Source: Bacteroides sp. 224 (GTDB taxonomy: Bacteria > Bacteroidota > Bacteroidia > Bacteroidales > Bacteroidaceae). From it: a DNA stretch of 64,000 nucleotides. Below the pieces are notes generated by a model, which made no database searches, was not told the origin of the DNA, and worked only from the letters and a program-made list of their open reading frames with translations. Location of the stretch: assembly GCF_010500995.1 (NCBI RefSeq), contig NZ_QVMK01000010.1, positions 1-64,000 on the forward strand, read 5' to 3'. The position numbers were made by a program, and so were the translations under genes. Below, one piece after another: positions 48,162 to 57,600 of this stretch; positions within the stretch are counted from its first letter, which is position 1, and each line of letters begins with the position of its first letter.

Positions 48162-48683
48162 CTACACAACCTTCACCTTCTCCACAAACCTCTTCGGCAC
48201 CCTCACCGTCACCGCCATCACCTGCGGAATTCTTATCATCACATGCGTTTTATTCGCTATGCTCATCAGTTCTCCTTCAATACCACAGAAATCTCCCTTT
48301 ACCACTCGTACTTTTTCTCCTACTGTAAATGGCTCAGTCTCAACGCTTACGCCATCGGGAGCTATATCCATTACAAACATAAAATCTTTCATCTGTCTGT
48401 CTGGTACAACTAACATAGAATGAGTAGATAAATCTTTCATGTAGAAGAGTTGCACGCCGTAGTCATTGGCTATAGAGCAAGCCCTATCTTTAGTGGCTCT
48501 AACAAATATCACATTCCGGATAACAGGCACTTCCACCATCTTTCGGCGATATTTCAACTCTCTAACTATTTTTCTGGTAGGCAGGAAGTATTCAACATTC
48601 AACTTTTTCAACGCATCACGAACAGCAAACTCCTGATCCCTACGAGTACGGGCAGCAAACCAAAACTCCTGTTGCTCAGCCAT
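48162..48683 (-). CDS. UpxY-type transcription antiterminator (NusG-like)
   Basis: A 173-aa NusG paralogue that, in Bacteroides, lets RNA polymerase read through the leader of its own capsule operon. The NusG N-terminal domain covers about 5-110 (WFAARTRRDQEFAVRDAL; EYFLPTRKIVRELKYRR). The KOW domain is VGEKVRVVKGDFCGIEGEL near 120-138. Start: ATG at 48683 (a TTG two codons earlier is less likely). It is first in the operon, downstream of a near-consensus promoter and of two competing hairpins. The usual partner gene upxZ is missing between it and wzx. Confidence 0.92.
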   Translation of the reverse strand: MAEQQEFWFAARTRRDQEFAVRDALKKLNVEYFLPTRKIVRELKYRRKMVEVPVIRNVIFVRATKDRACSIANDYGVQLFYMKDLSTHSMLVVPDRQMKDFMFVMDIAPDGVSVETEPFTVGEKVRVVKGDFCGIEGELMSIANKTHVMIRIPQVMAVTVRVPKRFVEKVKVV

Positions 48684-48721
48684 TTGCAATTATATTTCGT
48701 GGTTATTTTGATTGTTTTTAG

Positions 48722-48766
48722 AACGCTTCGCGTTTTGGACAAGACATTAAAATCCTGTTCAAAACG
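48722..48766 (-). promoter_or_regulatory. Two mutually exclusive hairpins in the upxY leader
   Basis: On the minus strand the leader first forms a long imperfect hairpin (48766-48731; arms CGTTTTGAACAGGA / TCTTGTCCAAAACG) and then a short one (48734-48722; AACGC-GAA-GCGTT) followed by CTAAAAAC. They share 48731-48734, so only one can form at a time. This is the layout expected of an attenuator that an antiterminator could control. Confidence 0.6.
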
Positions 48767-48844
48767 ACTCATTTTTTACACCAAAACAGAATGATTTGCT
48801 TTCTCAAAAGCACAAAATATCACTCTATTTACTGATTAAAGACA

Positions 48845-48875
48845 CAAAGTTAAAATCTTTTCAATAAAGAACAAA
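48845..48875 (-). promoter_or_regulatory. Promoter of the polysaccharide operon
   Basis: On the minus strand: TTTG at 48875-48872, a 19-nt spacer, and TAACTTTG at 48852-48845, a full match to the Bacteroidetes consensus. The predicted start near 48838 leaves a leader of about 155 nt before upxY. I found no convincing inverted repeats on either side, so there is no sign that this promoter is invertible. Confidence 0.8.
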
Positions 48876-48907
48876 ATTATTCTTAAAGGAATCGAAAATA
48901 TTAACGA

Positions 48908-48954
48908 TAAAAAAAGCAAGCACCCACAGATAGGGGCTATGCTTTAAGTACGAA
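48908..48954 (-). terminator. Probable minus-strand terminator just upstream of the capsule promoter
   Basis: On the minus strand the stem AAAGCA-AGCCCC / GGGTGCT-TGCTTT (one small bulge) is followed by TTTTTTT. It would stop transcription coming from the primase region before the upxY promoter and so insulate the operon. Confidence 0.6.
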
Positions 48955-49112
48955 CACAACAACCTACAGAACCACCTTTTTTTTAGTTAAAACGAGAGGT
49001 TCACACTCCCAAAAAGTGCTTGTTTTCCATCTCCTAATTCTTGCTGCATAATAAGAACGCGCCCGCGCGCCCGTTTCCCTGTTCTTTTAAAACCTTTTTT
49101 TATGCATTAGCG

Positions 49113-49128
49113 GAGGTGGTACCACCTC
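49113..49128. promoter_or_regulatory. Perfect 16-bp palindrome
   Basis: GAGGTGGTACCACCTC is its own reverse complement and suits a dimeric DNA-binding protein. It lies 40 nt after the GC-rich patch and 40 nt before the 32-bp inverted repeat. Confidence 0.65.
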
Positions 49129-49167
49129 TAAACAGGTATGAAAAAAAAGAAAAGATATATATATTTA

Positions 49168-49254
49168 AGTTTATAGTTTTTAGTTTATAGTTTAAAGTTG
49201 AGAGTTAGCATGTAGCTTTATAAACTTTAAACTATAAACTTCAAACTATAAACT
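49168..49254. repeat. 32-bp near-perfect inverted repeat upstream of the primase cassette
   Basis: Arms 49168-49199 and 49223-49254 match at 30 of 32 positions. Each arm holds two AGTTTATAGTTT-like units. The loop is 23 nt. Similar AAACTTTAAACT words occur at 53217-53246 before the small coiled-coil gene. Confidence 0.88.
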
Positions 49255-49263
49255 AAAAAAAAA

Positions 49264-49271
49264 TATTTTTG
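49264..49271 (+). promoter_or_regulatory. -7 box upstream of the small ORF at 49299/49361
   Basis: TATTTTTG matches TAnnTTTG. Transcription would start near 49278, about 20 nt before the ATG at 49299, which heads a frame that stops after eight codons. Confidence 0.55.
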
Positions 49272-49360
49272 CAGCTTTTTTAATTTAAAATTGAATTTAT
49301 GACTAAAAAATCTCTAAAACAGTAAAAACCGTACAGCTGACAGATGCAAATTGCATCATT

Positions 49361-49660
49361 ATGGTAAACAAGAAAACAGAGGAAGTAAACAGAATCCTTC
49401 GTATGGTAGAGTATAACTCACAAAGAATAGTGATAAATGCTGATAGAGAGCAAATTATTGAGTTGTTTCTCCGGCTGGCAGATAATGAGCCAAATCGAGA
49501 AAAGCCCCGCAGTGTACGAGAGATTACACGCATCATAGACCTGGTGTTCGACTTCCGTACACTGAAGAACCCGGAACAGAGTCTTGGTATTCAATCTCTT
49601 GAAACTCTGATACATACTTATATCAAAGAAAAGAACGAAAAAGAGTATGGTATTGAGTAA
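49361..49660 (+). CDS. Small hypothetical protein of the primase cassette, N-terminus uncertain
   Basis: A 99-aa charged, probably helical protein (NADREQIIELFLRLADNEPNREKPRSVREITRIIDL in the middle). I recognise no domain. The frame stays open upstream to 49319 without an ATG, while an ATG at 49299 with good promoter spacing heads another frame that ends after eight codons. Joining the two by one missing base would give an extra 21 residues beginning MTKKSLK and continuing TVKTVQLTDANCIIM. The gene may therefore be frame-broken at its 5' end, or it may start at 49361. A hairpin separates it from the primase gene. Confidence 0.7.
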   Translation: MVNKKTEEVNRILRMVEYNSQRIVINADREQIIELFLRLADNEPNREKPRSVREITRIIDLVFDFRTLKNPEQSLGIQSLETLIHTYIKEKNEKEYGIE

Positions 49661-49679
49661 CAATTAGTTAGAATATTGA

Positions 49680-49729
49680 TGGCAAATATCTCTATTTGAT
49701 CATTCCATTTCAAAGACGGATATTTGCCA
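49680..49729 (+). promoter_or_regulatory. Hairpin between the small ORF and the primase gene
   Basis: Perfect 11-bp arms TGGCAAATATC (49680-49690) and its complement (49719-49729) enclose 28 nt. It has no T-run after it and lies 48 nt before the primase ATG. It is either a weak terminator or a regulatory site. Confidence 0.6.
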
Positions 49730-49777
49730 AATAATAATCAAAACGTATCCACAGGGGATGCATAAAACACAAAACGT

Positions 49778-51949
49778 ATGAAAGAAATTAATGTAACAGC
49801 CTACCAAGGGTTTAGCAAAGTAACCGGTCATATCACCATCGAGCAACTTGTTTTGATGATACAATCCGACAAATACGCCAAATCTATCAGCAAAATTCAA
49901 CGACTGATTTCCTCCGGAAAATTAGAGGAGGCAAACCGGGTAAAGAGGCAACTGGACTTTTTTACGATCACCACACTGTATCACCACGAACGACAACCCC
50001 ACAGCATTGCCGCTTATAACGACCTGATTACAATTGACATTGACGGATTGAGCAATGAAGAGGTCTTCCGCTTGCGTCCGCTCATAGAACAAGATCCGAC
50101 TACTATTTTTTGTTTCCTGACTGTGAAGCAACATGGCTTCAAAATTATCGCTCACCTAAAAACACCCAGTGCTCAAACACTAAGAGATTTATACCTGAAA
50201 GGCACAGAGTTAACTTACAGCAAACTGGAAGATTACCATGAACAGATGTACCGGTTAACTCGACTTCACTATGAGCAAATACCCGGAATTACCGTCGACA
50301 CTTCGGGCAAAGATCTTTCAAGAGGAATATTTGCCTCTTATGACCCATTGGCTTTCTTCTCTCCCGAACGATTAGAGCAAGCCTGCCAGAACAAAATTCC
50401 GCCTATCACACAATTGCCGGAACCTACTGTCAAAAAAAGGATTAAACAAACTACCCGAAGTGTGACTCCCGCCACTACCGACAGCATCGATCCGGGCATC
50501 CGCCTTGCCTACCGCAAGTGTGTAAAAGCCATTGAAAAAGAGTATACTTATACCGAAGGACAGTACAACACGTTTCTTTTTGCCCTGGGCAACAAATGTA
50601 TGAAACGAAAATTATCGATGGAAATCGTACAGCAACTGGCAGCCGAAGAGTTTGGAGAAGGAGGCAGATGGAATACCGATGAACCCATCCGAAATGCGTA
50701 TACCTACACCGATAAAACCGAAAAGGCCGAAAAAGACAAAACACCACCTTCTCAGCGGGCACTGGAATATCTGGACGAACACTTTTTATTCCGGAGAAAT
50801 GTAATCCTGGAACGATTGGAAATGAAAGAGAAAGAAGCAGAAAACACCACTTTCCGAACCATGCGCCTCAAAGACTTTAATACCATCTTCCTCCATATCT
50901 GTCGGGCCGGTATTCCGCTTTCACAGCAAAACCTCAAAGCCATTATCGATTCGGAATACACGCGAGATTATAATCCTATCACCGGATACTTCGCCCAGCT
51001 ACCACCTTGGGACGAAAAGACCGACTATATTGGTCAGCTGGCAACCACCATCGAAACAGACGACTCGGAGTTTTGGAACGATGCCCTGCGCCGCTGGATC
51101 ACCGGAATGACAGCCTGCGCCATGGGATTACAGGAAGCCAACCAGTTGGTACTCTTATTACATGGCGGGCAAGGCAAAGGAAAAAGCACTTGGATACGCC
51201 ACCTGTTGCCTCCCACCCTCAAAGAATATTACCGAAACGGCATGATTGATCCGGGAAACAAAGATGATATGATGATGCTCGCTACGCGTCTGCTCATTAA
51301 TATGGAAGAATTTGAGGGGGTTAAACAAAGCGATATCGCAGAACTGAAACGCATCATCGCCCTCGAAAACATCACGCTCCGTAAACCTTACGACATACAA
51401 GCACATTCCTATCCTCGCAAAGCCTCCTTCATTGGGAGTACAAATAATCTTCAATTCCTGAAAGACAACACCGGTTCCAGGCGTTTCCTGGTAGTTTCGG
51501 TAAAAAAGATCGATTACAAATCTCCCATTAATCACACAGGAATCTTTAGCCAGGCCCGATTCTTGGCAGAGAATGATTTTCAATACTGGTACGAAGGTAA
51601 CGAGGTGGACACAATCAATGCCCGGAATGAAAAACATCGCATCAAAGATCCGTTGGAAGAAAACCTCTACATCTTCTTTCGAAAGGCCACAGAAAGATCA
51701 TTAGACACCAAATGGAAACCTGCTGCCGCCATCCTGGCTTTCTTAAGCATACATGGACGCACACTGGCAAACGCCCAAGCCCAACAGATACTAGTACACA
51801 TACTGGAAAGAGACGGATTCCGGAAAAGAAAAAATGAACTGGGAATCACCGAGTATGGCGTTATCATGTTATCTCCGGAAGAGATAGATATGAATGCGCG
51901 CAAACAGCAAGAAAAACCGATTGAGAAAACAGGGGAGTTGCCGTTTTGA
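49778..51949 (+). CDS. VirE-N / VirE (VapE-type) primase-helicase protein
   Basis: A 723-aa multidomain protein. Residues about 1-200 match the BT4734/VirE-N domain (ITIDIDGLSNEEVFRLRPLIEQD near 87-109; primase-like fold). About 240-320 form a PriCT-like helical domain (YNTFLFALGNKCMKRKLS). About 400-640 are the VirE/VapE AAA+ ATPase: Walker A HGGQGKGKST at 462-471, Walker B-like LLINMEEF near 507, and sensor-like FIGSTNNLQFLKDNTGSRRF. Such proteins start or unwind DNA in phage satellites and islands. In Bacteroides they recur near capsule loci with an HU-like gene and an amidase. The actual role there is unknown. Confidence 0.88.
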   Translation: MKEINVTAYQGFSKVTGHITIEQLVLMIQSDKYAKSISKIQRLISSGKLEEANRVKRQLDFFTITTLYHHERQPHSIAAYNDLITIDIDGLSNEEVFRLRPLIEQDPTTIFCFLTVKQHGFKIIAHLKTPSAQTLRDLYLKGTELTYSKLEDYHEQMYRLTRLHYEQIPGITVDTSGKDLSRGIFASYDPLAFFSPERLEQACQNKIPPITQLPEPTVKKRIKQTTRSVTPATTDSIDPGIRLAYRKCVKAIEKEYTYTEGQYNTFLFALGNKCMKRKLSMEIVQQLAAEEFGEGGRWNTDEPIRNAYTYTDKTEKAEKDKTPPSQRALEYLDEHFLFRRNVILERLEMKEKEAENTTFRTMRLKDFNTIFLHICRAGIPLSQQNLKAIIDSEYTRDYNPITGYFAQLPPWDEKTDYIGQLATTIETDDSEFWNDALRRWITGMTACAMGLQEANQLVLLLHGGQGKGKSTWIRHLLPPTLKEYYRNGMIDPGNKDDMMMLATRLLINMEEFEGVKQSDIAELKRIIALENITLRKPYDIQAHSYPRKASFIGSTNNLQFLKDNTGSRRFLVVSVKKIDYKSPINHTGIFSQARFLAENDFQYWYEGNEVDTINARNEKHRIKDPLEENLYIFFRKATERSLDTKWKPAAAILAFLSIHGRTLANAQAQQILVHILERDGFRKRKNELGITEYGVIMLSPEEIDMNARKQQEKPIEKTGELPF

Positions 51950-51982
51950 GAGGAGAGGTTCACCTGTGTGATGCCCCACCTA

Positions 51983-52018
51983 CCCCCAGTCGCTTCGCTT
52001 CACTGGGGGTTATTCAAA
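51983..52018. repeat. 36-nt dispersed repeat with 8-bp hairpin, copy A
   Basis: CCCCCAGT / ACTGGGGG arms (51983-51990 and 52002-52009) with an 11-nt loop, CGCTTCGCTTC, followed by TTATTCAAA. Positions 51983-52018 are identical, in inverted orientation, to 63778-63813. It lies 33 nt after the primase stop. Confidence 0.9.
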
Positions 52019-52170
52019 TTTTACCCCAAGGGGTAATTGCTAATAATCCAGGTTAGAATTATTTTCCTCTGTGTCCTCAGTGTCCTCTGTGGTGAAACCC
52101 ATTGCCTTATCCCCACAATCCATCACCTTATCCCCCTTAATGCATTGCTTTCTCCTCATAACTCAATGCT

Positions 52171-52410
52171 TTACGGTTCTCCCAAATACTTTACAATAAT
52201 CCCCACTTCCTTTGGAGTAAACGTTCTCCGGTATTTATTATAACGAACGGCTTCCAGTTCCGCCATCAGTAGTTCATTCTCTTTCATCCAGCGGGAAAGG
52301 GTTTTCAAGGCAACCGTAATACAAGACGTAGGATTATATAAAGTGGCTAATTCCGCCTTTGTATAGGCTCTGGGCTGGAAGTTACTTTCTTCAGTTACAA
52401 GCTGTTTCAT
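52171..52410 (-). CDS. DUF4248 domain protein
   Basis: A 79-aa basic protein of the DUF4248 family (FQPRAYTKAELATLYNPTS, TALKTLSRWMKEN-like ALKTLSRWMKEN, FTPKEVGIIVKYLGEP). The pattern of a short helix, turn, helix and a final positioning motif resembles a DNA-binding winged or HTH fold. A regulator for the cassette is plausible but unproven. It is the only minus-strand gene between the primase and HU-like genes, and its promoter would face that of the HU-like gene. Confidence 0.85.
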   Translation of the reverse strand: MKQLVTEESNFQPRAYTKAELATLYNPTSCITVALKTLSRWMKENELLMAELEAVRYNKYRRTFTPKEVGIIVKYLGEP

Positions 52411-52540
52411 TAGGACATATACACATAATTATTCACCCATAAAGATAGTAAAATATCCTTTTAAATCACAGTATTTTCCCCTATTTTTCCAACAACTCTC
52501 CTAAACTCCCGAAACCCGATTTCATAGAAAAGCCACCCAT

Positions 52541-52548
52541 TACTTTTG
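52541..52548 (+). promoter_or_regulatory. -7 box of the HU-like gene
   Basis: TACTTTTG matches TAnnTTTG. A TTTC at 52520-52523, 17 nt upstream, is the best -33 candidate. The leader to the ATG is about 80 nt. Confidence 0.55.
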
Positions 52549-52634
52549 CAAAGAGAAAAGGGATAAGAAACCATCAAAACTTACCTTCTCTCTCATTTTT
52601 AATTCTTAATTATTAATTCTAAATTATTAAAACC

Positions 52635-53138
52635 ATGCCCGTACCCTACAAAAAAATGAAGCGTAAGGATCCTCGAAATGCAGCATCCAACTTCAAGTAC
52701 TATCCACAACTGGTTACCTTGGGTAACAGTGCCGATCTGGATGATGTGGCCTATTTGATGAAAGAAGCCAGCTCCCTCTCTCTGGGAGACATCAAGAGTG
52801 TATTAACCAATTTTTCCGAGTGTATGCGCACGTTGCTCTATGGAGGTCAGTCGGTCAACATCAAAGACTTTGGCGTGTTCAGCCTTGGTGCCCGTACCTT
52901 CGGCTCGGAAAGCGAAAAAGAGTGTGGTGTGAAAAACATCAAAACCGTAAAAATCAATTTCCGTGCGTCCAACAGCGTAAAACCCAACTTAAACTCTACA
53001 CGCGCCGGCGACCGTATTAAATTTTACGATGTGGCAACCGGAGTAACCGAGGAAGTCAAAGATGATAACGGAGACAACACCGGGGGAGGAAATGGCGACA
53101 ATGGCGGAGGTGATGAATTTATTGATCCATCGGCATAA
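52635..53138 (+). CDS. HU-like DNA-binding protein with Gly/Asn/Asp-rich tail
   Basis: A 167-aa member of the Bacteroidetes HU-like family (long HU domain, about residues 1-125). DIKSVLTNFSECMRTLLYGGQSVNIKDFGVFSLGAR near 55-90 is the HU dimer and beta-arm region. The tail from about 140 is a low-complexity DNGDNTGGGNGDNGGG sequence, usual in this family. It binds DNA without strong sequence preference. In Bacteroides genomes these genes are typically followed by a very short protein and an amidase, and the same is seen here. Confidence 0.9.
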   Translation: MPVPYKKMKRKDPRNAASNFKYYPQLVTLGNSADLDDVAYLMKEASSLSLGDIKSVLTNFSECMRTLLYGGQSVNIKDFGVFSLGARTFGSESEKECGVKNIKTVKINFRASNSVKPNLNSTRAGDRIKFYDVATGVTEEVKDDNGDNTGGGNGDNGGGDEFIDPSA

Positions 53139-53248
53139 AGTAGTAAGATATGTATCCGTGTTTTAAAATCCGTGCAATCTGTATCATCCGTGTCTAAAAA
53201 AACATCTTCTACAAACTCAAAACTTTAAACTACAAACTTTAAACTCAA

Positions 53249-53521
53249 ATGAAACCAATTATTCAAAAACTATTAGAATGCCTCCTTGCCATTCTTCCTT
53301 TCCTAAAGAAAAAGAATGCCAAAGAACTAAAAGAGTTCAGCGACTTAGTAATGAGTCAGTACACCTTCCTGATGGAACAGGTGGAAAGAATGTTGAAAGA
53401 CTATTTTCTGCTAAGCAACAAGGTAACAGAGATGCATAGCGAATTATTCCGGCTACGAGAAGAAGTACTGCAAGCCCAACAAGAAAGATGCAGTGTACAC
53501 AATTGCCCTCAACGTTCGTAA
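53249..53521 (+). CDS. Small protein with hydrophobic N-terminus and coiled coil
   Basis: A 90-aa protein. Residues about 4-19 (IIQKLLECLLAILPFL) are hydrophobic and could insert in a membrane. Residues 25-80 are a Leu/Glu-rich coiled coil. The end is CSVHNCPQRS with two Cys. No family is recognised. It occupies the place between the HU-like and amidase genes, and the amidase ATG is 14 nt after its stop. A holin- or spanin-like partner of the amidase is a guess from position and topology only. Confidence 0.75.
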   Translation: MKPIIQKLLECLLAILPFLKKKNAKELKEFSDLVMSQYTFLMEQVERMLKDYFLLSNKVTEMHSELFRLREEVLQAQQERCSVHNCPQRS

Positions 53522-53534
53522 AAAAACAACTATT

Positions 53535-53969
53535 ATGAGACAAATCAATTTAATCGTCATTCACTGTTCTGCTACGCGCGAAGACAGGTGTTATACGGAA
53601 CACGACTTAGATAGAGACCACCGTCGCCGTGGTTTTAACGGTACCGGCTACCACTACTATATCCGCAAAGATGGACAGATAATAAATACACGCCCCATTG
53701 AAAGGATAGGCGCACATGCCAAAGGATATAACCAACACTCCATCGGGATTTGTTATGAGGGAGGCTTAGATAGCCAAGGAAAGCCCAAAGACACTCGTAC
53801 GGAGCTACAAAAGCGCTCTCTTAGAATTGTAACCGGTGGACTACTTGCTGAATTTCCCCACTGCCGGATATGCGGACACCGCGATTTAAGCCCGGATCTG
53901 AATGGCAATGGAGAGATAGAACCGGAGGAGTGGATTAAAGCATGTCCGTGTTTTGAGGTTGAGAGTTGA
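53535..53969 (+). CDS. N-acetylmuramoyl-L-alanine amidase (T7 lysozyme-like, Amidase_2)
   Basis: Cuts the bond between MurNAc and L-alanine in peptidoglycan. With the ATG at 53535 it has 144 aa; a GTG 14 codons upstream would overlap the previous gene. It shows the T7-lysozyme zinc set: His10 (IVIHCSA), His115 (CGHRDLSPD) and Cys137 (IKACPCF), plus Tyr in GYHYYIRKDG (39-48) and Lys135. No signal peptide is present, so export needs another route, as for phage endolysins. It is last in the cassette. Confidence 0.93.
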   Translation: MRQINLIVIHCSATREDRCYTEHDLDRDHRRRGFNGTGYHYYIRKDGQIINTRPIERIGAHAKGYNQHSIGICYEGGLDSQGKPKDTRTELQKRSLRIVTGGLLAEFPHCRICGHRDLSPDLNGNGEIEPEEWIKACPCFEVES

Positions 53970-54601
53970 GAGAAAACCGTAATTATATGCAAAATATATA
54001 CATTGCAATTTCCAAAAGATTCTTTTTCCAAAAATTAGAAGAAAGTAAAATTGTAATTTTCACATCAAAAAGAAACAAAAACAATACATTACAAATCCAT
54101 CACTCATTTACATCTACAGTTTAATTCATAAGAATTTCAGTCCAAGTAAGCCATTCAATTGGCTTACTTTCAATTTATCACTTTACTCGAATAAGACAAC
54201 TATCAACCTCTCTACTTTCTATCAAAATGTAAGATACACCTAACTAAACAGCGATTGAAATTTGCATAAAAAAAGGATGAAAACAGAATAAAAGGCACAA
54301 AAAAGATCTCAAAAAATTCTTATGTTTAAGAACATTCTCCCCTGAAAAAGCACTATATAGTTTTGCTCATCTAAGGTTTTATATCTACTTTCGTTTTTAC
54401 ATTATTTTATTTACGTTTTATTAATTGCACAGTTTTAAAGATTTGTTTTTTGATTTTTATTAACTCACAATGCCTTTAATACAATGTATATATCAGATAA
54501 TTAATCATAGATCAGTTGTATTTTTTAAACTATTATAGCAATTTTAATGTTAAGAGAGTTTATGCTTTTTTTAATCTATTAATTAAATTCATAACGTTCC
54601 T
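53970..54601. other. Intergenic region between amidase and susC genes
   Basis: No gene is seen in these 632 A+T-rich nt. They hold the hairpin at 54144-54169 and a -7-like TAGTTTTG at 54358-54365, with no good -33 match. The susC leader would then be about 230 nt. No ECF sigma or anti-sigma gene is next to the susC gene, so regulation must come from elsewhere. Confidence 0.6.
54144..54169 (+). terminator. Hairpin, probable terminator of the amidase cassette
   Basis: Perfect 10-bp stem AAGTAAGCCA / TGGCTTACTT with a 6-nt loop, followed by TTCAATTT. Confidence 0.7.
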
Positions 54602-57600
54602 ATGGAAAGAAAACGCAAGTGTTCATGCTCCGGAATTTGGAGTATAAAACATTTAAAGAGGATAGCACTGCTATCAGTGGGTACTTTGATTTTTGGGTGT
54701 CCTGCCACGCTTCATGCGTCGGAGCCCGTTTTTGCAGAATCGGTGCAACAAGAAAAAAGACCGGAAACCGTTGTTATCAAGGGTTTCGTGAGAGACCGGC
54801 TAACCAACACTCCGCTTCCCGGGGTGAATATCAGCGACTCCGAAAAAGGAGGGGGAACAATCAGTCATGCCGACGGTTCTTTCTCTCTAAACGTTGCTAA
54901 ACGCGATCGCATTACGTTGCAATTTACATTCATCGGAATGAAAACGCTTAATATAGTGTGGAACGGAAAACCCTCTATCAATGTGTTGATGGAAGAAGAT
55001 TTCCAAAGTATTAGCGAAGTGGTAGTAACCGGTATCTTTGAGCGTAAAGCAGAGAGTTTTACGGGATCGGCGGCAACTTTTAACACGGATCAGTTGAGAA
55101 ACATCGGTTCGCAAAACGTTCTACAAAGTTTAAAATCATTGGATCCTTCTATTACCATTACAGAAAGTGAACTATTTGGTAGCGACCCCAACAGATTGCC
55201 AGATCTTGACATTCAAGGAAAAACCAGTATCAACGACCCGCGAAACAATTATACCACCGACCCTAACCAACCACTATATGTGATAGATGGTTTTGAGGCT
55301 ACTGCCAGAGATGTGGTAAACCTTAACATCAACCGCATTGAGTCGTTAACTGTACTGAAAGATGCTGCATCAACAGCTATCTGGGGTTCGAAGGCCGCTA
55401 ATGGAGTTATTGTTATTGAAACCATTAAGCCACAACCAGGAAAAATAAGGGTAGAATATGGCGGTTCTTTCGGTTTTGACATTCCAGACCTTAGCGATTA
55501 TAATTTGATGAATGCAGCAGAAAAGATTGAATTTGAACGTCTTTCGGGAGCTTACAATAGTAATGATCCTTATTTAGATCATAACTTCAAGGAGCTTTAT
55601 AACCAACGCTTGAGAAATGTACTCAGCGGAGTTGATACTTATTGGTTGAAAGAGCCGATTCGCACAGGTTTCTCGCACAAACACAATGTGTCTGTAAACG
55701 GTGGTGATGATACGTTTATCTATAACTTCGGTCTGAATTATGGTGAGACCCAAGGAGCTATGAAAAAATCGGGCAATGATTTATTGGGGCTAAATGTGGA
55801 TCTTCAATATCGCACCAATAAAATGCGATTCCAAAACAAAACTACAATTGAGTCTTACAATGAATGGAATCCTCCTGTATCATTCTCCGAATATGCCGAG
55901 GCAAACCCTTATTTTGAAAAAGTATCCGGAACCCAACCTCTATATTTGGAAGAATTCGTAGTAGATGGAGGTGGAGTTTCCAAGAATGAACCCTTTCGCA
56001 GCCCCAACCCATTGTATAATGAGGGATTAAATCACATCAATGAGAATAAGAATTTAACTTTCAAAAACAATTTCTTTGCCGAATGGCGCCCTATTGATGG
56101 TTTAAAAATACAAGGGCGCTTAATGGTAGAACTACGTCGCAACAAATCTGAGCTTTTCAAATCGCCCTACCATACCGATTTTGCCACCACAGTGGCCAAC
56201 GAACGTGGAGAGCATAAAAAGACAACCAACGACGGAAACAAATATTCCGGAGACATTACTGCAGCATATTATAAATTATTTAAAGAAAAGCACCAACTTA
56301 ACTTGGTATTGACCGGAAAGCTTTCTTCCGAGAAATATATAACTGACGGATATAAAGCAGTAGGATTTGCTAGTGATGTTATCCCTTATCCTTCATTTTC
56401 TCAGCAAAATGAACCGAATAAAAAACCTGAGTACAATCAAACTGAAATTCGTGCGAACGACTACTTTATCAATGGAGGATATGTGTTTGACCAGCGCTAT
56501 GCATTTGATGCCACCCTACGCTATGATGGGTCGAGCAACTTTGGAAGCAGCAATCTATACACCACCACATGGTCGACTGGTATTGCTTGGAACATTCATC
56601 ATGAAAAGTTTGCCAAGGACCTCTTTGACTTGCTAAAAATTCGCTTCTCTGTAGGAAATCCAGGTAACAATAACTCTAAATATTACACCACCACTACTTA
56701 CCAGTACATGACACAAGCCAACTTATTTGGTAACGGATTGCATATCAATCAATTTGGTAGTACCGGTTTAGATTGGGAGAAAACGCTTAAATATAATCTT
56801 GGATTTGACCTGACCACTCGCAACAGTCGTTTTTCAATGGTGGTTGACCTCTATAAGAAAATTTCCGATCCATTGATCGTCAGATTAGACCTTCCGGCAT
56901 CAACTGGTCGCGAAAATTTGCAAACCAACATGGGTAGAAATACTATTAAGGGTATTGACTTTAAAGCAAATTACAACATCATCAACCGAGGTAGCGAAAG
57001 AATTTTGTGGGGTATCGGTATTAATGGTAGTTCCAAAACCGCCAAATACAGCAAAATGGGCGACTTAAGCAAATTGAATGATTATATGCGCGATGAAGCA
57101 TCTAGCTTAAGACGCTTTGCCAATGGATATAGTCAATACGACCTTTGGGCAGTTCCATCGGCTGGTATTGACCCAGGAACAGGTAAAGAGACTTTCATCA
57201 AGAAGAATGGTGAATACACCTTTACATACGACAAAGCCGACGAAGTGAGAATTGGTAGTTCTGAACCCGATTTAAGTGGACGCATCAGCACCAACCTTGT
57301 ATACAAAGGCTGGAGTGCTTCAATTATCTTACATTATATTATTCGACAAGATAAAATGAATACCTTTCTTCAAAATCGTGTTGAAGGTCTTGACAGAGAC
57401 AAAGTTCTACTAAAGAACCAAGATAAAAGAGCTTTGTATGACCGCTGGATAAAACCGGGAGATCATGCTAAATTCAAAGACATTACTGATATCAAAGGAA
57501 CCACCAGTTATTTGTCAAGCCGTTTTATGCAAACAGAGAATTTGCTTTCAGGAGAATCTATCTCTGTGGGTTATGATTTCGCAGGTCATAATTGGTTGGA

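Follow-up and report, generated by a model that had tools for sequence, protein, structure and literature searches.

In the passages of PMC5862659 that treat them, the BT4734-like proteins are described as a family of archaeo-eukaryotic primases lying outside the clades, and as occurring in mobile elements in fusion with VirE or DUF3987 helicases. An amidase is labelled a 'phage insertion' in capsular polysaccharide (CPS) loci 1 and 13 of all 26 Parabacteroides distasonis genomes in the relevant parts of PMC9409006. A six-gene cassette that carries both kinds of protein lies at positions 49361-53969 of a 64,000-nucleotide stretch of DNA from Bacteroides sp. 224 (contig NZ_QVMK01000010.1, positions 1 to 64,000), the whole of which we call the window. 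We suggest, tentatively, that it is a resident, integrase-less, replicon-like cassette for replication and opening of the cell wall, roles that are read from sequence. An earlier note had listed five genes and likened them to a phage satellite; the five are real, and a sixth small gene, orf99, precedes them at 49361. No description of the whole cassette was found in the open-access literature searched, subscription papers being outside the scope of that search.

The gene set recurs. DUF4248 genes occur in 40 of 40 Bacteroides genomes, with 1 to 12 copies in each, and in 13 genomes 47 of 81 have a PHROG-822 amidase gene no more than 5 kb away, where 0.9 would be expected. The maximum under the null was 5 in 2000 random placements and 10 in 2000 circular shifts; the count excluded the Bacteroides sp. 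224 genome, two DUF4248 entries and the UpxY entries under cut-offs, and one amidase fragment. Such linkage bears out the proposal of a recurrent set of replication and lysis type, and it speaks against the genes occurring independently in most genomes. Composition was compared over 60 DUF4248 loci, those among the best matches listed for 13 genomes assembled in few contigs (one G017 entry, G039 and G049 excluded). A gene for HU is present in 55 of them, divergent from DUF4248 in 41, on the same strand in 12 and convergent in two. A small protein is encoded in 41 loci (smalltalk in 27, p90 in 14, both in none) and shares the HU strand in 41/41 cases, as does the amidase in 36/36. HU, small protein, amidase and replicase are found together in 25 loci.

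The replicase position is filled by unrelated enzymes. In our own grouping, with class representatives assigned by Pfam, 46 loci have a replicase: a PrimPol-VapE protein in 14, a split primase with a PriCT-2/DUF3987 helicase in ten (one of them broken), a fused DUF3987 type in five, Toprim-DnaB in 11 and DnaB in six; a rule of distance and length instead gives 45/60. HU lineage tracks replicase type, since a tree of 44 HU proteins requires seven changes of type against a mean of 24.9 on shuffling, with 0 of 200 shuffles as low, an agreement to which near copies in the tree add. At the small-protein position p90 occupies the slot held elsewhere by smalltalk, and the wall-enzyme position can hold a glucosaminidase, as in P. 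distasonis (L052; locus numbers are our own), or an M15 peptidase, as at L025 of the Bacteroides sp. 224 genome. Unrelated parts are swapped within slots, and the slots would therefore serve joint functions, namely to start replication, act at the membrane and cut the wall.

In the window the replicase gene (49778-51949, forward strand) encodes a 723-residue primase-helicase of the VapE/VirE type that the earlier note had recognized, a BT4734-like N-terminal domain (PF08800, E 4.7e-28) being fused to a VapE-type AAA+ helicase (PF05272, E 2.5e-35). Asp87, Asp89, Gly468 and Lys469 are invariant in 12 homologues. The sole solved structure matched by a profile of the protein is 7pds, 'Similar to D. 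nodosus vapE' (E 3.5e-27), which we take to be a staphylococcal satellite protein. Relatives of at least 39% identity and near full length are all from Bacteroides (L072-L095, among the matches listed), and a match at E ≤ 1e-90 is present in 19 of 60 genomes of the genus, this one included, and in 0 of 40 others. Sets with more distant primases extend beyond the genus to P. distasonis (L052), an uncultured Mediterranea (L109), a goat Bacteroidaceae (L111) and Segatella copri (L112). The clade of the window primase (the window and L072-L075) occupies two sites. Broken primase copies are seen at L070/L097, L071, L093 and L094.

A candidate origin of replication lies 3′ of the gene in sister lineages. 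Among 40 loci, near relatives included, element 9-mers are found just 3′ of the PrimPol-VapE gene in up to 13, with 0/40 both upstream and in coding sequence. Twelve chosen loci display a hairpin with a nearly invariant arm after it; ten of the 18 hairpin pairs are changed on both sides yet have retained their pairing. The 21-base core of this arm, a pattern derived from these loci, has five occurrences across 14 whole genomes, all of them 3′ of PrimPol-VapE genes (L235, L237, L253, L255 and L282) and none elsewhere; a reversed-pattern control gave 0. The exact core is present in 6/26 named loci. A second primase clade has its own hairpin with a different loop in four of five loci (L076, L079, L081 and L083, not L087), that loop pattern having one further match in the 60 loci and two in controls. 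Our reading is that primase lineages come with recognition elements of their own, in the way that a replicase has its origin, and that the hairpin may be that origin.

On the same side of the window primase gene are weak direct repeats of 21-22 bp (52096-52157, no strand assigned), candidate iterons that are not secure. They belong to a family that we designate D2, with copies at 100, 84 and 74%, and are not listed by Tandem Repeats Finder (TRF). Their score was reached in 1/200 shuffles, which is weak given that 15 stretches were tried with simple base shuffles; the same place in L073 gave 0/200. The gap between the primase and DUF4248 genes also holds, at 52065-52091, three copies of the 9-base unit TCCTCTGTG.

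The cassette genes look to be selectively maintained. The ratio of non-synonymous to synonymous substitution (dN/dS), a check that the earlier note had called for, is 0.03-0.21 where dS is measurable, many pairs having dS > 1, p90 and amidase being represented by the single pair L028/L029 and smalltalk not being covered. Comparisons that involve the window copy often show saturation of synonymous positions and have a proportion of non-synonymous differences (pN) of 0.09-0.31. There is thus no sign of relaxed selection where the ratio is measurable. One site common to four records (L080, L089, L090 and L092) is informative with respect to exchange. L080 and L092 are 89-100% identical in DUF4248, HU, smalltalk, amidase and ABC-F and 54% identical in the primase; their DNA identity drops sharply from 94% to 43-68% across the primase gene (79% where the gene ends) before recovering to 89-98%, so that the primase alone seems to have been swapped. 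Comparison of L090 with L092 gives 54-57% in the DUF4248-HU block, 72% in the primase, 79% in the amidase and 99% in ABC-F, which suggests that here it was the DUF4248-HU block that was exchanged. These drops are consistent with segmental exchange, and segments therefore seem to have been exchanged while the site stayed constant. Because the primase tree splits the four records into two groups, the order of which is not firm, we infer replacement rather than fast change. The parts of the cassette look partly swapped between species.

The remaining cassette genes were characterized with family libraries (Pfam, PHROG and NCBIfam, covering seven proteins of the region) and structure prediction. 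The HU gene (52635-53138, forward strand) encodes 167 residues with a Gly/Asp-rich tail and is confirmed as an HU-HIG protein (PF18291, E 2.8e-19), matching the HU-like packer first proposed; its TIGR01201 score is barely above the cut-off. The 79-residue DUF4248 protein (52171-52410, reverse strand; PF14053, E 2.3e-25), divergent from HU, is predicted by AlphaFold2 (AF2) with confidence (predicted local distance difference test, pLDDT, 89), and the fold has zero matches in the PDB at E ≤ 0.001. The suggestion that it is a regulator is thus unsupported, and DNA-binding regulation was dropped as a candidate role on the same search.

The gene for p90 (53249-53521, forward strand) encodes 90 residues with no convincing family in the library searches. 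The AF2 model (mean pLDDT 79) has a short hydrophobic N-terminal helix (residues 2-21), in agreement with the N-terminus described before, then a long coiled helix (24-83). It is not smalltalk, there being no match to NF033879 when a score over the model cut-off is required. The amidase gene (53535-53969, forward strand), the ATG start of which sits inside a longer GTG open reading frame (ORF), gives matches to PF01510 (E 4.6e-17) and PHROG 822 (E 7.4e-50), and the nearest solved structure is T7 lysozyme (1lba, E 1.3e-29). His10, Tyr42, His115, Lys135 and Cys137 are invariant in 11 homologues, a set that we take to be the conserved site of the T7-lysozyme-type zinc amidases; the Amidase_2 family match and these residues place the protein in that group. 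No signal peptide is evident by eye, so that the description of a T7-lysozyme-like amidase without one holds. The first gene, orf99 (49361-49660, forward strand, 99 residues), has no family in Pfam, PHROG or NCBIfam; homologues precede the primase in L072, L073, L074, L075 and L094 and in several of the 60 loci. Upstream of it is an AT-rich inverted repeat (49164-49258) with 36-nucleotide arms that are 92% complementary, and the stretch before p90 (53214-53245) is related to it.

To the left of the cassette a UpxY antiterminator gene (48162-48689, reverse strand; NF033644, E 1.1e-49) is the first gene of a capsule locus and provides context rather than a cassette component. To the right is a SusC/SusD-like pair, identified by eye, and beyond it a GMP synthase that shares 91% identity with the copy at L073. 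The 64-kb window has zero tRNA genes. Recurrence beside capsule loci, as the earlier note had it, is correct as an enrichment, 15 of 81 DUF4248 genes in 13 genomes lying within 10 kb of UpxY against 1.5 expected (tenfold; null maximum 6 by random placement and 8 by circular shifts), and too narrow as a description, the other 66 lying farther away. The 118 nearest flanking ORFs of the 60 loci (searched over at most their first 330 residues) were compared with 119 control ORFs from 40 regions at round-number positions, counting by family and not by locus. The leading families among the neighbours are NusG/UpxY (6), GT1 (6), GT2 (5) and Bac_transf (3), all absent among the 25 of 163 control families shown, which include every family of two or more members.

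Other neighbours were noted. At L055 (10923-16910)/L286, which is UpxY-adjacent, AAA-ATPase-like and AbiD-like genes, recognized by eye, lie between the primase and DUF4248 genes and are possibly defence genes inserted into the cassette; AbiD gave one match among the neighbour ORFs. An AAA-ATPase_like/PDDEXK_9 gene recurs near the cassettes in 7/60 loci, examples being L258:1829-3397 (PF09820/PF08011) and, by eye, L333:4616-6175, where it lies between HU and DUF4248, and L009:6863-8422.

Bacteroides sp. 224 itself has eight DUF4248 genes, seven PF08800 primase genes and 28 HU-HIG matches, 26 above the cut-off. Loci L027-L029 have DUF4248, HU, p90 and amidase, and at L026 the contig stops within HU; a tyrosine-recombinase-like gene adjoins these paralogous cassettes (L026-L029, the L028 copy by NCBIfam). 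L028 and L029 are nearly identical (p90 98%, amidase 95%), adjoin fimbrial-like genes (by eye) as well as the recombinase-like gene, and probably arose when an entire surface locus was recently duplicated. There are six further PrimPol-VapE genes (L008-L013, on contigs C35, C40, C41, C46 and C56), those at L008, L009, L011 and L012 directly behind an HU gene of 127-132 residues. We considered these six as sister cassettes and rejected them, phmmer finding HU with primase, or primase alone; the three loci read (L009, L011 and L013) lie among core genes and are without DUF4248 or amidase.

How might such a cassette work? The PrimPol-VapE protein would act like the self-loading primase-helicases of satellites as we understand them, those of the Staphylococcus aureus pathogenicity island (SaPI) Rep type, recognizing a cognate element beside its own gene, opening the DNA and priming local replication. 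HU, from a promoter region common with the divergent DUF4248 gene, may shape or condense the replicated DNA, and p90 or smalltalk together with the peptidoglycan hydrolase would form an envelope-opening arm. In this scheme the small protein would aid the amidase. Going further, it is conceivable, and on balance unlikely, that these cassettes make up a chromosomal family of replicons that have become trapped, in each of which the replicase fits an origin-like element of its own, with incompatibility or phage pressure keeping the alleles different and local replication beside surface loci followed by opening of the wall. They would then form a new class of domesticated element for replication and release, one by which surface genes are diversified or spread.

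Several observations weigh against a replicon-like, wall-opening cassette. A replicase is out of reach in 15/60 DUF4248 loci and the amidase is lacking in 23/60, including most of those beside UpxY (present in 4/11), so that the amidase is an optional member of the set. The small protein occurs without amidase in 12 loci and the amidase without small protein in eight, and because each partner can stand alone a fixed, holin-like pairing is weakened. DUF4248 has no assignable activity. The loci in the hairpin alignment were chosen once the element was already known and include near relatives, the exact core is found in 5 of the 14 loci with PrimPol-VapE in the set of 60, and the window copy has neither hairpin, only its weak 21-bp repeats. 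Hairpins located between convergent genes can act as bidirectional terminators, a plain alternative that accounts for the hairpin and less well for the invariant arm. If the cassette is replicon-like, the 3′ hairpin makes the idea directly testable.

A different view, which we regard as unlikely, is that of a host anti-phage cassette acting by abortive infection, in which a phage signal would turn on the replicase/HU arm, the amidase would lyse the cell and pressure from phages would diversify the alleles. The apparent swapping of alleles at a fixed site fits this view. PMC12118408 reports, in the parts that concern it, that a B. xylanisolvens cluster of three genes (UpxY, export and amidase) was down-regulated in an experiment with phage, and this too would be compatible. 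At 1e-10 the neighbour ORFs match 29 PADLOC families against 12 for the control ORFs, many of these families being redundant models of one protein. Within the cassette the primase-helicase matches the CRISPR-associated PrimPol and DRT VirE-PriCT2 models of PADLOC over its N-terminal part, and there are zero PADLOC matches for orf99, HU, DUF4248, p90 and the amidase. The defence option raised earlier is thus left with a shared primase domain and nothing beyond it in PADLOC, and a known defence system was rejected. The frequent absence of the amidase also counts against abortive infection, and to our knowledge a replicase with its own cis-element would be an unusual layout for defence. If the cassette does serve defence, the presence of phage-type lysis genes in chromosomes that lack prophages would be accounted for.

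That the cassette is the remnant of a prophage or satellite in decay seems to us improbable. The phage-like amidase and VapE helicase, the cassettes without some parts and the broken primase copies are in its favour, as is the 'phage insertion' label given to the amidase in the P. distasonis passages of PMC9409006. The low dN/dS of the measured genes (p90 and amidase from one pair each) disfavours decay, as do the conserved order, the presence of DUF4248 in 40/40 genomes and the almost complete lack of the diagnostic proteins in viral contigs. In a pattern-based scan of 2.9 million viral contigs the best primase match was 36% over the helicase part, DUF4248 gave 0 and p90 was found in one contig (L292), where by eye a run of phage-like genes seems to stop before a glycosyltransferase-like gene. 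The amidase is phage-like in kind because its relatives are common in phages (1710 phage records); low-identity relatives of the primase are present in 570. No integrase or structural gene is apparent by eye among the ORFs of 45-58 kb, as had been noted for this copy, a repeat search of 48400-54700 gave no convincing att-like flanking pair, and the PHROG matches of the cassette proteins include no packaging or capsid-redirection gene and no structural match below E 0.2, a virion match of p90 at E 0.28 being noise. A prophage by definition was rejected, there being no integrase, no structural genes and little viral occurrence, and the label of satellite in the usual sense fails on the lack of integrase, att-like pair and packaging gene together with that scarcity in viral contigs.

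It is also doubtful, to a greater degree, that the cassette is a device for DNA release or exchange, in which local replication of a neighbouring surface locus would be followed by lysis that spreads the DNA. The frequent position at variable surface loci (UpxY enrichment and glycosyltransferase neighbours) and the apparent segmental exchange between species would suit it. HU and DUF4248 each match nine phage records, all 'Bacteriophage sp.' from human faecal samples; 11 such contigs are 'UNVERIFIED' clones from Mexico, the records of which do not state particle-DNA origin. Exact terminal repeats are absent from all 11, and by eye several contain ordinary genes of the chromosome, such as those for an efflux pump and a polymerase; comparable records include ABC-F and GMP synthase genes as well. 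A primase 41% identical over full length is encoded on one unverified faecal contig, the only other large ORF of which resembles the AAA-ATPase family found near cassettes. The cassettes on such contigs have chromosomal-type neighbours and, because the records also hold other chromosomal genes, packaging is unsupported, and we do not count these records in its favour. Least credible is a set of loose hitch-hikers, independent genes gathering at recombination hot spots without joint function, for which components that can be missing and seem swapped singly would speak, and against which stand the DUF4248-amidase linkage (47/81 versus 0.9), the HU lineages that track replicase type and the invariable strand of the small protein and amidase (41/41 and 36/36).

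A replication and wall-opening cassette of the kind we favour can now be set beside what has been described. As a unit the cassette family is unnamed in annotations and only fragments are named; smalltalk (NCBIfam NF033879) and 'BT4734/BF3469 family protein' are annotation names for its parts, which state no function. The cassettes often adjoin loci that determine the appearance of gut bacteria to phages and host. In P. distasonis the 'phage insertions' of PMC9409006 are the same kind of amidase in UpxY capsule loci, the passages concerned naming the amidase alone and not a cassette with replicase, HU, DUF4248 and small protein, and 'phage insertion in a capsule locus' is an oversimplified label. 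With the BT4734-like primases of PMC5862659 the cassette protein shares the N-terminal primase family and the pattern of helicase fusion, linkage to HU and amidase not being treated in those passages. Of the features that mark a satellite's own Rep and origin, the primase-helicase is present, and the origin is suggested by the sister-lineage hairpins and the weak repeats of the window. Comparison with SaPIs and the phage-inducible chromosomal islands (PICIs), for which the layout of the SaPI origin serves as a guide, is the closest. In common with their Rep or Pri-Rep module the cassette has a VapE-type AAA+ helicase, that of the sole solved match, 7pds, along with the PrimPol fusion and, in sister lineages, a candidate cis-element beside the gene. 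Unlike these islands it has no detected integrase, att pair or packaging-interference gene, and it adds HU, DUF4248 and a wall hydrolase at chromosomal sites common to several species.

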